Of a DNA stretch of 64,000 nt, positions 13,370 through 34,254 are shown in pieces (position 1 is the first letter of the stretch; each line of letters starts with the position of its first letter). Location of the stretch: the NCBI RefSeq assembly GCF_900105765.1, contig NZ_FNTX01000002.1, positions 1,612,001-1,676,000 of the forward strand, written 5' to 3'. The DNA comes from Ruania alba. GTDB lineage: Bacteria; Actinomycetota; Actinomycetes; Actinomycetales; Beutenbergiaceae. Both the position numbers and the translations under genes were made by a program. Below the pieces are notes generated by a model. The model saw only the letters and a list, made by a program, of their open reading frames with translations, was not told where the DNA came from and ran no database searches.

Positions 13370-14041
13370 TCACGGGATGGTGAGGCGCCCCGAGCGTGAC
13401 AGTGGGTCCCACAGTCCGCACGCCTGCAGCAGCGTGCGGGCCATCGCCCGGTGACCGTAGGCGTTCGGGTGACATCCATGGCCGAGCCAGTGGTAGACCG
13501 AGTTGACCTCGGTGGCTTGCCACACCGCATAGTGGTCCACCAGCACGGCACCGGTCTCCGCGGCCACACCCCGGATCGCCTCGACGTACTCCGCCAGGTG
13601 CGCCACCACGTGATCCGGTCCGGTCGTCAGGGTGTCGTTCGGCGTCTGCGCCACCACCAGAGCACCGGTCTCGGCACGGAGCCGGTGCACCAGTTCGGTA
13701 TAGCGGCGGGCAAAGTCGTGCACACCATCCGTTGTGCCCTTCGTATCGTTCAGACCGGTGCCGATCAGCACGATGTCCGGGCGGTACCGCAGGCACACCG
13801 CGTCGAGCTCAGCCAGCAGGTTGCCCACCTGCCACCCACTGACGGCGGTCGTGACCACCCCGTCCCGGGTACGGCCGACCTCCCGGAGCCGTTCGTGGAA
13901 GAGCTCCGAGTAGCCACGCGATCCCCAGGTGTGCCATCCCGCCGCCGTGACGCTGTCCCCGATGAAGGACCAGGCCAGCGGCGCCTCCGTGCTGAGCACC
14001 TGCACCAGCTCGGGTGCTGCGTCCACCGTGGTCGCCGTCAT
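13370..14041 (-). CDS. SGNH/GDSL-family hydrolase (putative carbohydrate esterase)
   Basis: The 223-residue enzyme has the SGNH blocks: FIGDSVTAAGWHTWG (block I, catalytic Ser), a central glycine in AVSGWQVGN (block II), GTGLNDTKG (block III, Asn), and the terminal GCHPNAYGHRAMA (block V, His). There is no signal peptide, so it acts inside the cell. Such enzymes commonly deacetylate sugars. Its start overlaps the stop of the neighbouring Gfo/Idh gene by four bases. It is the third gene of an operon driven by an operator-bearing promoter near 15960, which ties it to the propeller/ABC locus. Confidence 0.85.
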   Translation of the reverse strand: MTATTVDAAPELVQVLSTEAPLAWSFIGDSVTAAGWHTWGSRGYSELFHERLREVGRTRDGVVTTAVSGWQVGNLLAELDAVCLRYRPDIVLIGTGLNDTKGTTDGVHDFARRYTELVHRLRAETGALVVAQTPNDTLTTGPDHVVAHLAEYVEAIRGVAAETGAVLVDHYAVWQATEVNSVYHWLGHGCHPNAYGHRAMARTLLQACGLWDPLSRSGRLTIP

Positions 14042-15051
14042 CGAGGTCGCACGGGCTGCCCGGTACGGGCCGAGGTGTACGCGGCTTCGATGAAGGCCAC
14101 GGCGGCGCGAGCCTGGCTCGAGGTCACCAGAGGGGGCTGCCCGGTGGTGACCGCGGTGACGAAGTCGGTCAACTGTGCGAGCTGCTGGTCTACTGGCTCG
14201 AAGGCTGGCACCTCGTGGCCGTCACGGGCGATGAAGTGCGTGAACTTCTCGGAGAGCGTGACCGCTGTGCCGCCGTCCCCCATCACCGCAACCCGGAGCG
14301 GCAGGTTCCCGTACGCCGTCGTGGTGGCCAGGAACGTCAGCAACGCGCCGCTGGTGAAGCGGGCGGTGATGGTGATCGTGTCCTCGACCTCGATCCGTTC
14401 GTGCGCCAACAGTCCGCTGTGCGCATAGACCTCCTCGACATCACCGAGCAGCCAGAGCGCCAGATCCACCAGGTGGACGCCCTGGTTCATCAGGGCGCCG
14501 CCGCCGTCCAGCGCCCACGTGCCACGCCAGGCGCCCGAGTCGTAGTACTCCTGGGTGCGCCACAGGGCGATCTCGATGTTCGCCGTCGTGAGATTGCCGA
14601 GCCGGCCGGACTGGATGGCGTCGCGGAGGAACTGGTTCTCCGGCGCGAACCGGCGTTGGCTCACCACGGAGAGCGTCTTGCCGGACCGCTGCTCAGCGGC
14701 GATGATCCGGTCCGCCGCGTCCACGGTCACGTCGATCGGCTTCTCCAGCAGGACATGCTTGCCGGCGTCGAGAGCCGCGATTGTGACATCGGCGTGCAGC
14801 CCGGAGGGGATGGCGATGATCACCGCGTCGACGTCGGTGCGGGCCAGCAGCTCGGGCACGGATGCGTCGACGGGTGCGCCGAGGTCGTCACCCACCGCCT
14901 GGGCCGATGCCGGGTCGGCGTCCGCGATTGCCACGAGCTGTGCGGGGGAGCTGTCCGTCAGCAGTCGCTTGATGTGCGCCTTCCCGATCACCCCCACACC
15001 GATGACGCCGATACGGAGCCGGTCGCTGCTGCTCGGGGCGGGAGTGGTCAC
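14038..15051 (-). CDS. Gfo/Idh/MocA-family oxidoreductase
   Basis: The 337-residue NAD(P)-dependent dehydrogenase has the N-terminal Rossmann motif IGVIGVGVIGKAHIKRL, the EKP motif in GKHVLLEKPIDVT that carries the catalytic lysine region, and the C-terminal GGGALMNQGVHLVDLALWLL segment typical of inositol/sugar dehydrogenases. Both ends overlap neighbouring genes by four bases, so it is co-translated with a second Gfo/Idh protein upstream and an SGNH esterase downstream. Family members oxidise or epimerise sugars, polyols or uronates; the substrate here is not deducible. Confidence 0.9.
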   Translation of the reverse strand: MTTPAPSSSDRLRIGVIGVGVIGKAHIKRLLTDSSPAQLVAIADADPASAQAVGDDLGAPVDASVPELLARTDVDAVIIAIPSGLHADVTIAALDAGKHVLLEKPIDVTVDAADRIIAAEQRSGKTLSVVSQRRFAPENQFLRDAIQSGRLGNLTTANIEIALWRTQEYYDSGAWRGTWALDGGGALMNQGVHLVDLALWLLGDVEEVYAHSGLLAHERIEVEDTITITARFTSGALLTFLATTTAYGNLPLRVAVMGDGGTAVTLSEKFTHFIARDGHEVPAFEPVDQQLAQLTDFVTAVTTGQPPLVTSSQARAAVAFIEAAYTSARTGQPVRPR

Positions 15052-32546: not shown

Positions 32547-34254
32547 GCACGCCGGCGCTGCGGCTCCGGTAGCAGGGGTGGCGTTGGACGTCACCGGGCT
32601 GAACGTGGGTTTCGGCATGCCGGATGGCACCACCACGTGGGTCGTGCACGATCTGGACGTGACGGTGCCCGAGCACGGGTCGTTGGCCATCGTCGGTGAG
32701 TCAGGAAGCGGCAAGAGCGTCTCCATGCGCGGCATTCTCGGCCTGCTTCCCGGCAACGCCACGGTCACCGGTCGTGCGGTCCTGCGGACTCCCGCTGCGA
32801 ACGGACTTGAGTTGATCGGGGCCCCCGAAGGAGCCGTGCGGCGCATCCGAGGGCGCGACGTCGGCATGGTCTTCCAGAACGCGATGGAGGCGCTGAATCC
32901 CTCCATCCCGCTCGAGCGACAGCTCACCGAGCATCTGATCTGGCACGGGCTGTGCGGGCGGCAGGAGGCGACCAGGCGAGCGGTCCAGGCACTCGGCGAT
33001 GTCGGTATCCCGGAGCCGGAACGCCGGTTGCGGATGTACCCGTTCCAGTTGTCCGGCGGTATGCGCCAGCGGGCCATGATTGCGATGGCCACGATCACCC
33101 GGCCGCAGCTGGTGATCGCTGACGAACCGACCACGGCGCTCGATGTCACCGTGCAGAAGCAGATCCTCGATCTGCTGGTCGAACTGCGCGAGCGTGGGAT
33201 GGCGCTGGTGATGATCACCCATGATCTCGGCGTCGCGCGGTACGTGTGTGACTCCGCCGTCGTCATGCGCGAGGGCCTGGTGCTCGAACGTGCGCCCATC
33301 GCAGAGTTGATCGAGACCCCGCAGCACGAATACAGCCAGAGCCTGGTCGATGCGGCTCTGGACGTGGGAGACGGGCCGGCGCCGATCCAGGTTATCGACC
33401 CCGCACGGCCGCCGGATCAGGTCAACGGCCCGTCCGGCAGCAGGGACCCGGTGGAGGAGGCAGGTGCGCCGGTGCTCCAGGTCCGCGATCTGCGGAAGGT
33501 ATTCGAGGGTCGCGCCGGTGATGTCCTTGCCGTCGATGGAGTGTCCTTCGACCTGCGGCCCGGACGCACCCTCGGCGTGGTGGGGGAGTCCGGTTCCGGT
33601 AAGTCGACTCTCGCCCGGTTGATCCTCCGGCTCGTGGAGCCGACGGCCGGGGAGGTGCAGTTGGACGGGGAGGACCTGCTCGCGTTGTCCGGCAGTGCGT
33701 TGCGTCGGCGGCGTCGCGGGATGCAGATGGTGTTCCAGTCACCGTACGGTTCGTTGCTGCCCACCTACACGGCCGCGGAGAACATCGCTGAGCCGCTCCG
33801 GATCAACAAGATCGGCACGCGTGGGGAGCGCAGGGAACGCGCGCTGGAGCTTCTCGAGCGAGTGCAACTGGCTCCGCAGTTCGCGGATGTCTACCCCCGG
33901 CAGCTCTCCGGCGGGCAGCAGCAGCGCGTGGCGATCGCCCGCGCCCTCGCGCTCGAGCCTGCGCTCTTGGTGGGTGACGAGCCGACCTCCGCGCTGGATG
34001 CCTCGGTGCAGGCCCAGGTCCTCGACCTGTTGCGACGGCTTCAGGACGACCTCGGCTTCGCGATGCTGCTCATTACCCACAACCTGGCAGTGGTGGAACG
34101 GCTTGCCGACGATGTGATGGTGATGCGCAGTGGCGAGGTGGTGGAGAAGGTACCGACGGCACAGCTCTTCTCCGCGCCGGAGCACGACTACACGAAGACC
34201 TTGCTGGATGCAGTGCTCCCCGTTCGGAACGGCGCCGGGGCCATGCCGCGCTGA
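32521..34254 (+). CDS. Fused double ATPase of the Opp/Dpp-type ABC importer (DppD-DppF fusion)
   Basis: One 577-residue polypeptide carries both ATP-binding domains. Domain 1 (residues ~20-270) has GESGSGKSVSMRG, LSGGMRQRAMIAMA and LVIADEPTTALD. Domain 2 (~315-560) has GESGSGKSTLARL, LSGGQQQRVAIARALA and LLVGDEPTSALDASVQ, with H-loops THDLGVAR and THNLAVVE. The oligopeptide C-terminal tail typical of DppD (TPQHEYSQSLVDAALD) follows domain 1. Translation can begin at ATG 32521 or 32530, both inside the permease 2 gene. It completes the importer; no further gene follows in this operon. Confidence 0.93.
   Translation: MPSMSTRAEHAGAAAPVAGVALDVTGLNVGFGMPDGTTTWVVHDLDVTVPEHGSLAIVGESGSGKSVSMRGILGLLPGNATVTGRAVLRTPAANGLELIGAPEGAVRRIRGRDVGMVFQNAMEALNPSIPLERQLTEHLIWHGLCGRQEATRRAVQALGDVGIPEPERRLRMYPFQLSGGMRQRAMIAMATITRPQLVIADEPTTALDVTVQKQILDLLVELRERGMALVMITHDLGVARYVCDSAVVMREGLVLERAPIAELIETPQHEYSQSLVDAALDVGDGPAPIQVIDPARPPDQVNGPSGSRDPVEEAGAPVLQVRDLRKVFEGRAGDVLAVDGVSFDLRPGRTLGVVGESGSGKSTLARLILRLVEPTAGEVQLDGEDLLALSGSALRRRRRGMQMVFQSPYGSLLPTYTAAENIAEPLRINKIGTRGERRERALELLERVQLAPQFADVYPRQLSGGQQQRVAIARALALEPALLVGDEPTSALDASVQAQVLDLLRRLQDDLGFAMLLITHNLAVVERLADDVMVMRSGEVVEKVPTAQLFSAPEHDYTKTLLDAVLPVRNGAGAMPR

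Follow-up and report, generated by a model that had tools for sequence, protein, structure and literature searches.

This report concerns a 64,000-nucleotide stretch of the Ruania alba genome (contig NZ_FNTX01000002.1, positions 1,612,001 to 1,676,000; hereafter the window), and in particular a locus at window positions 13370–34254, where genes for five exported propeller proteins (A–E) lie together with an SGNH esterase, two Gfo/Idh oxidoreductases and an Opp/Dpp-type importer. Judged from sequence, the locus is part of a regulon that is real and conserved, has a LacI-type operator and includes an exported propeller family without a name. Its gene content and the paralogy of its propellers were observed directly, as were the restriction of the operators to two clusters and the conservation of the combined gene set in relatives.

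Genes and operators of the locus

Six LacI-type palindromes (TGCAAYCGRTTGCA, with at most one mismatch) occur at three promoter regions of the window (Table 1), and all genes of the locus read outward from these regions. The putative transcription units are W2-W1-SGNH, A and B-C diverging from each other, and E-D and the Opp operon likewise diverging. An initial annotation had proposed promoter-linked operators common to the importer, enzyme and propeller genes, and the six sites agree with it. With up to three mismatches the window holds 17 matches, compared with 4.45 expected from shuffles, and none of 100 shuffles reached 17. The 4.83-Mb genome contains eight exact and five one-mismatch sites, and all 13 belong either to this locus or to a second cluster (described below); the two together take up 45.7 kb (0.95%) of the genome. 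Under a dinucleotide model derived from the window, 0.02 exact sites and 1.2 sites at one mismatch or fewer would be expected genome-wide, and the reversed pattern has no genome site at that stringency; a chance origin is thus ruled out at zero to one mismatch. At two mismatches or fewer the operator is not in excess genome-wide (29 sites versus 37 for the reversed pattern), and the 16 further two-mismatch sites are background.

Gene calls in the window, made from codon-position composition and Pfam, bear out the gene list drawn up earlier: the coordinates match and Pfam gives the same names (Lipase_GDSL_2, GFO_IDH_MocA twice, SBP_bac_5, BPD_transp_1 twice and a fused ABC_tran pair). By Pfam the Opp/Dpp importer set is complete, with SBP_bac_5, two permeases and two ATPase domains, the binding protein being frame-shifted. 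Propeller D and this binding protein, both named in that list, are indeed present, each broken over two frames, and the open reading frame (ORF) at 28696–31650 is actually the binding protein and OppB, two genes merged by a frame change. An SDR gene in a third propeller cluster also looks split over two frames, and all three frame changes may be assembly errors. The true start of W2 probably lies downstream of the one listed, because an operator overlaps the 5′ end of its ORF. By eye, the SGNH esterase has no visible signal peptide and is therefore probably cytoplasmic.

Table 1. Genes and operators of the locus (window positions)
Feature	Position	Strand	Basis or remark
SGNH/GDSL esterase	13370..14041	-	Pfam PF13472 1.5e-27; GDS and GxND blocks
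Gfo/Idh oxidoreductase W1	14038..15051	-	Pfam and PDB matches
Short Gfo/Idh oxidoreductase W2	15048..15977	-	PF01408 8.9e-13; also in relatives
Operator TGCAATCGGTTGCA ahead of W2-W1-SGNH	15963..15976	.	0 mismatches
Propeller A, exported, predicted tandem beta-propeller with C-terminal beta-helix-like domain	16087..18522	-	structure model
Operator between A and B	18628..18641	.	1 mismatch
Operator upstream of B	18717..18730	.	1 mismatch
Propeller B, Tat-like signal (by eye), without beta-helix tail	18799..20874	+	longest ORF from 18535
Propeller C	20989..23490	+	longest ORF from 20881
Propeller D, two reading frames, break around 24842-24900	23548..25963	-	intact relative in L071
Propeller E, nearest to A (53-54% identity)	25974..28430	-	sequence search
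Operator upstream of E	28535..28548	.	1 mismatch
Operator between E and SBP	28625..28638	.	1 mismatch
Operator upstream of Opp operon	28702..28715	.	0 mismatches
SBP_bac_5 substrate-binding lipoprotein (SBP), lipobox by eye, frame break around 30291-30306	28771..30521	+	Pfam
OppB-type permease	30592..31650	+	Pfam
OppC-type permease	31650..32546	+	Pfam
Fused OppD-OppF ATPase, oligo_HPY	32521..34254	+	Pfam

A partner cluster and its conservation

The second operator-bearing cluster lies about 300 kb from the window locus, at C2:1294338-1314962 (stretches L029 and L030). Its sugar genes encode NagA-like, NagB-like and GlcNAc-2-epimerase-like (AGE) proteins, an enolase-family protein, a 2-hydroxyacid dehydrogenase (2-HADH), a DapA-like protein and an SDR, and they are accompanied by a LacI gene, a MalEFG-type importer, DUF4127, three Gfo/Idh genes, two propellers and a hydrolase with weak glucuronyl-esterase similarity. 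The window locus, first taken for a whole system, is thus only half of one, with the metabolic half and the LacI gene 300 kb away. There is no LacI gene in the window, and none of the 71 LacI matches in the genome falls between C2:1597327 and 1696268. The LacI2 gene, at C2:1299178-1300191 within the second cluster, likely encodes the regulator of both halves; it was chosen among the 71 because of its place, the operator ahead of its presumed operon and its conservation in relatives. It is probably self-controlled, as the last gene of that operon. Binding of this LacI to these operators is, in our judgement, probable.

Conservation was followed by clean tblastn searches with 25 queries in stretches taken from eight genomes. 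Genes of the window type and of the second-cluster type adjoin, with the same operator, in G003, G005 and G023, and therefore appear to form a single catabolic regulon, whose substrate is most likely a glycan containing amino sugars. The fetched stretches of G005 and G023 carry SGNH, W1, W2, SBP, OppB, OppC and OppDF together with LacI2, the enolase-family protein, AGE, 2-HADH, Gfo2a, Gfo2b, the esterase and NagB, and G003 has the same combined set without SGNH. In G007, OppDF and a piece of OppC stand at a contig end beside second-cluster genes. MalE2 was not found in the stretches of G023, nor DUF4127 in those of G003, G005 and G007. Relatives of LacI2 (55-96% identity) occur in the clusters of G002, G003, G004, G005, G007 and G023, and NagB-like genes in those of G000 (the source genome), G002-G005, G007 (partial) and G023. 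With at most one mismatch, the operator is found in the propeller clusters of eight genomes (G000, G002-G007 and G023), and no copy occurs in 589 kb of distant propeller stretches or 380 kb of control stretches. Shared operators at promoters and a gene set conserved in relatives support the early proposal that glycan utilisation genes are linked here by LacI operators.

Related clusters without the importer, SGNH and Gfo/Idh genes would have spoken against that proposal, and this was observed in part. Both W1 and W2 are kept in G002, G004 and G006, and SGNH in G004 and G006, and no Opp genes were seen in the fetched stretches of these three genomes. Their best matches to A and E reach 31-37% identity, versus 67-73% in G003, G005 and G023, and Opp consequently seems to accompany propellers A/E (and C).

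We give a probability of roughly 0.6 to the reading in which the window locus supplies the extracellular and import functions, half of one glycan utilisation regulon repressed by LacI. The exported tandem propellers would work on a glycan at the cell surface or beyond it, and the products would enter through the Opp-type importer and, for the other half, the MalEFG-type importer. In the cytoplasm, the SGNH esterase would remove acyl groups and the Gfo/Idh enzymes would oxidise sugar carbons; such deacylation and oxidation of imported oligosaccharides are suggested by the shared operon of these genes, whose products lack visible signal peptides. The NagB-like, AGE-like and enolase-family proteins and the 2-hydroxyacid dehydrogenase (here also the NagA-like and DapA-like proteins) would complete catabolism, and the LacI of the partner cluster would switch both halves.

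Several known systems offer comparisons. Like the LacI-controlled polysaccharide utilisation loci of Gram-positive bacteria, this one appears to place importers, exported proteins and the sugar enzymes of the cell interior under shared LacI-type palindromes; unlike them, it is split over two loci 300 kb apart and has an uncharacterised propeller family in the exported role, with no glycoside hydrolase (GH) or polysaccharide lyase (PL) among the scanned proteins. The importer has the same SBP_bac_5, OppB, OppC and fused OppDF with oligo_HPY as the Opp/Dpp/Nik importers, but is embedded in a sugar regulon. The best PDB matches of W1 are, in order, 3q2i, 3q2k, 8tdi (a glucuronide-3-dehydrogenase), DgpA1 and DgpA, and 3q2i and 3q2k also top the list for Gfo2b. 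Matches three to five thus recall the Gfo/Idh glycoside 3-dehydrogenase pathways of the DgpA/BT2158 type, although no curated 3-dehydrogenase cut-off is reached. A weak 3-keto-disaccharide hydrolase match was obtained for a DUF1961 protein in G002.

Fold and conserved site of the propellers

The five propellers, initially described as paralogues, are so: searched with A, the genome yields 10 matches, of which six lie in the window (one each for A, B, C and E, two for the pieces of D) and four at three places elsewhere. The model of A (mean pLDDT 88.5, pTM 0.80) is a confident tandem propeller with about 14 blades, by our strand count, followed by the beta-helix-like tail; modelled alone, the second propeller reaches a pLDDT of 92. 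Six of seven propellers carry the tail (A, C, D, E and both of the second cluster, not B). A Foldseek comparison had been suggested as a means of linking the propellers to PL or GH propellers or to a non-carbohydrate family, and the best 50 matches listed point to neither. There is no lyase or glycosidase among the best 50 of 1965 for whole A or the best 50 of 1890 for the second propeller, and the matches listed are generic (tandem WD40, designed propellers, G-beta, YncE), with the heparin sensor BT4663 at rank 39 for the whole protein. A PDB profile search gave a designed propeller as best match (E 1.6e-08) and weak matches to PL22-type oligogalacturonate lyases (E 0.024 and 0.05). PL24, PL25, FoRham1 and GH145 are not named among the 51 PDB sequences at E ≤1 or the 50 listed fold matches, and Pfam and NCBIfam do not name the family as carbohydrate-active. 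The PDB folds give the family no name, the matches listed being generic.

Conservation was more informative. From 75 matched ORFs, 73 second propellers were kept, with context labels assigned by hand, one protein counted twice (the L029/L030 overlap) and D represented by its C-terminal piece only. Tyr444, Arg477 and Gly501 are invariant in all 73; position 428 is Gln in 52 and Glu in 21, and position 475 is Gln in 66. By predicted strand order, the conserved residues would lie on one face near the axis, at the starts of inner or the ends of second strands, and the Tyr444/Arg477/Gln-or-Glu428 pattern fits a putative active or glycan-binding site. The near-invariant Asp113, Asp223, Asp560 and Asp602 are assumed to be structural blade positions.

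PL25 uses a Tyr base. The propeller lyases PL24, PL25 and FoRham1, and GH145, are beta-propellers with the active site on one face, as the candidate site here would be; unlike these single seven-bladed proteins, the present family has a tandem double propeller and lacks an invariant His. In FoRham1 the neutraliser is given as Arg166 in passages of PMC8377490. One rather unlikely idea is a new extracellular, metal-independent lyase family acting on amino-sugar polysaccharides, in which the top face of the second propeller would carry a Tyr base together with Arg and Gln/Glu as neutralisers, coupled to cytoplasmic oxidative opening of the oligosaccharides (by Gfo/Idh, and DUF1961 in some relatives) instead of GH88-type hydrolases. 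The propellers may also be hydrolases.

Whether by either route, cleavage rather than mere binding falls somewhat short of even odds. Propellers often act as lectins, and it is conceivable, if not what we would expect, that these are non-catalytic proteins for glycan binding or capture, with the depolymerase encoded elsewhere or the substrate arriving as oligosaccharides. The CBM4_9 domain in the second-cluster paralogue 2b and the lack of a PL or GH fold match among the 50 listed would suit such a role, but the divergent paralogues of one locus all keep the same Tyr/Arg/Gln-or-Glu site, and the scanned regulon proteins include no other recognisable polymer-cleaving enzyme. The initial statement that no recognisable glycoside hydrolase is present holds for PL as well, at E ≤0.001 among the scanned proteins; that scan took in neither the permeases MalF and MalG nor the N-terminal portion of 2a. 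A 1256-aa protein in the G003 cluster (L064:4875-8645) weakly matches a lambda-carrageenase propeller (E 4e-4, short of the cut-off).

Distribution, substrate and significance

Genome searches scored the best six, two and five candidates per genome in a set of 149 genomes, the phylum and the order, respectively, and the counts are therefore lower bounds. The propeller alignment was matched in at least 24 of the 149 (several only through the common tail), in at least 4 of 396 genomes of the phylum, where the family is rare, and in at least 31 of 396 genomes and 13 of 109 sampled genera of the order; the first two counts include the source genome. A scan of named genomes gave two loci, both in Candidatus Ruania gallistercoris. 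Neighbourhoods were tallied for 49 propeller stretches (propeller re-found in 47) and 20 controls, the stretches being author-chosen and several from one genome, with lower bounds for DapA-like, AGE, 2-HADH and SDR genes. Enriched near propellers were 2-HADH (12 versus 0, p 0.010), MalE (13 versus 1, p 0.038) and MalF/G (19 versus 3, p 0.047); NagB was found near 8 of 49 versus 0 of 20 (p 0.054).

A glycan containing N-acetylhexosamine is somewhat more likely than not to be the substrate. NagB-like, GH123, sulfatase and ROK genes near propellers favour such a glycan, sulfated in some relatives, and the NagB/NagA/AGE-like genes make an amino-sugar-containing glycan a better reading than the plant or algal polysaccharides first considered. 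In G103, G601 and G712, outside the family, a NagB-like gene sits between two propellers, with a ROK kinase and a sulfatase also at the G601 locus; a GH123 domain lies beside a propeller and Opp importer elsewhere in G003, and sulfatases lie by propellers in cluster 3 and in G004. The third propeller locus of the source genome (L031/L032, C2:2311315-2327654) has two sulfatases, DUF1961, MalEFG, divergent DapA-like genes, an SDR and Gfo/Idh, and no operator copy. The 4.8-Mb source genome has 57 sulfatase-domain matches (some being two pieces of one gene) besides its many LacI matches, and the organism looks like a specialist of sulfated glycans. A classical unsaturated-uronate lyase route is disfavoured, with no GH88/105 match in the genome.

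A number of points weigh against the regulon reading, among them this lack of GH88/105, the lack of a lyase or glycosidase fold match and the breaks in D and the Opp binding protein in this assembly. None of the NagB-, NagA- and AGE-like proteins reaches a curated cut-off, and the DapA-like, SDR and NagA-like genes are no conserved core, being present only in G000 and G004, with NagA also in G002. Near propellers there is no clear enrichment of LacI (13 versus 3, p 0.24), Gfo/Idh (13 versus 2, p 0.11) or ABC ATPases (11 versus 6), and the association is weak beyond the genus (MalF/G 7/30 versus 3/20, NagB 3/30 versus 0/20, LacI 5/30 versus 3/20). The operator is absent from G010 and from three more propeller loci of the genus, all of the prop3 type. 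Many distant family members have no reference sugar genes nearby, many adjoin housekeeping or surface-polysaccharide genes, and the best PDB matches of the Opp binding protein are peptide-binding OppA proteins.

The last two points bear on uptake or recycling of peptides or cell-wall fragments (muropeptide, teichoic acid) rather than use of an environmental polysaccharide. A relative of the binding protein matches OppA and murein-peptide-binding proteins in the PDB, and, by eye, distant propellers in L095, L157, L154, L158, L159 and L145-L146 adjoin apparent surface-polysaccharide or teichoic acid biosynthesis genes. This explanation is nonetheless improbable, as sugar catabolism is indicated by the genes that share the operator (MalEFG importers, Gfo/Idh, NagB-like) and by the sulfatases of some related clusters.

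Sialic acid catabolism could also conceivably account for an SGNH O-acetylesterase, a DapA-family lyase, a GlcNAc-2-epimerase, NagA/NagB, an Opp-family importer and propeller sialidases. According to passages of PMC8754123, the gene classes of that pathway (NanA, NanE-II, NagA, NagB and an ABC importer) overlap those found here, and Ruania albidiflava has a nan cluster; the same passages, however, name FadR as regulator of 226 of the 234 nan clusters in the class Actinomycetia. The DapA-like protein, moreover, matches a single NCBIfam family, 5-dehydro-4-deoxyglucarate dehydratase, and that far short of the cut-off (3.7e-06, 26 bits); in the PDB it matches DHDPS, its gene is absent from most relatives' clusters, and Pfam finds no sialidase repeats in the propellers. 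As for the combinations that define a nan cluster (Neu5Ac lyase with NanK/NanE, or with NanE-II and RokA), an AGE-like gene is present and the DapA-like gene is not assigned to Neu5Ac lyase, NanK and RokA not having been searched genome-wide. We regard this explanation as very improbable. DapA-like and SDR genes occur in the same 5 of 66 stretches (L029, L032, L066, L078 and L142) and in 0 of 20 controls, and the three lowest of 11 DHDPS-family matches in the genome (C2:1294851, 2311315 and 2324207) lie about 0.3-10 kb from a propeller gene.

No description of the propeller family or of the LacI-operator regulon was found in titles, abstracts or passages of the literature, mostly outside subscription papers. 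Through the shared operator, two separate clusters can be tested as a single system, which has a candidate regulator as well as importers and enzymes. Should the propellers prove to cleave, theirs would be a carbohydrate-active family not named as such by Pfam or NCBIfam, and their activity would account for a glycan regulon that works with no recognisable hydrolase. The family may include a new kind of polymer-cutting enzyme.

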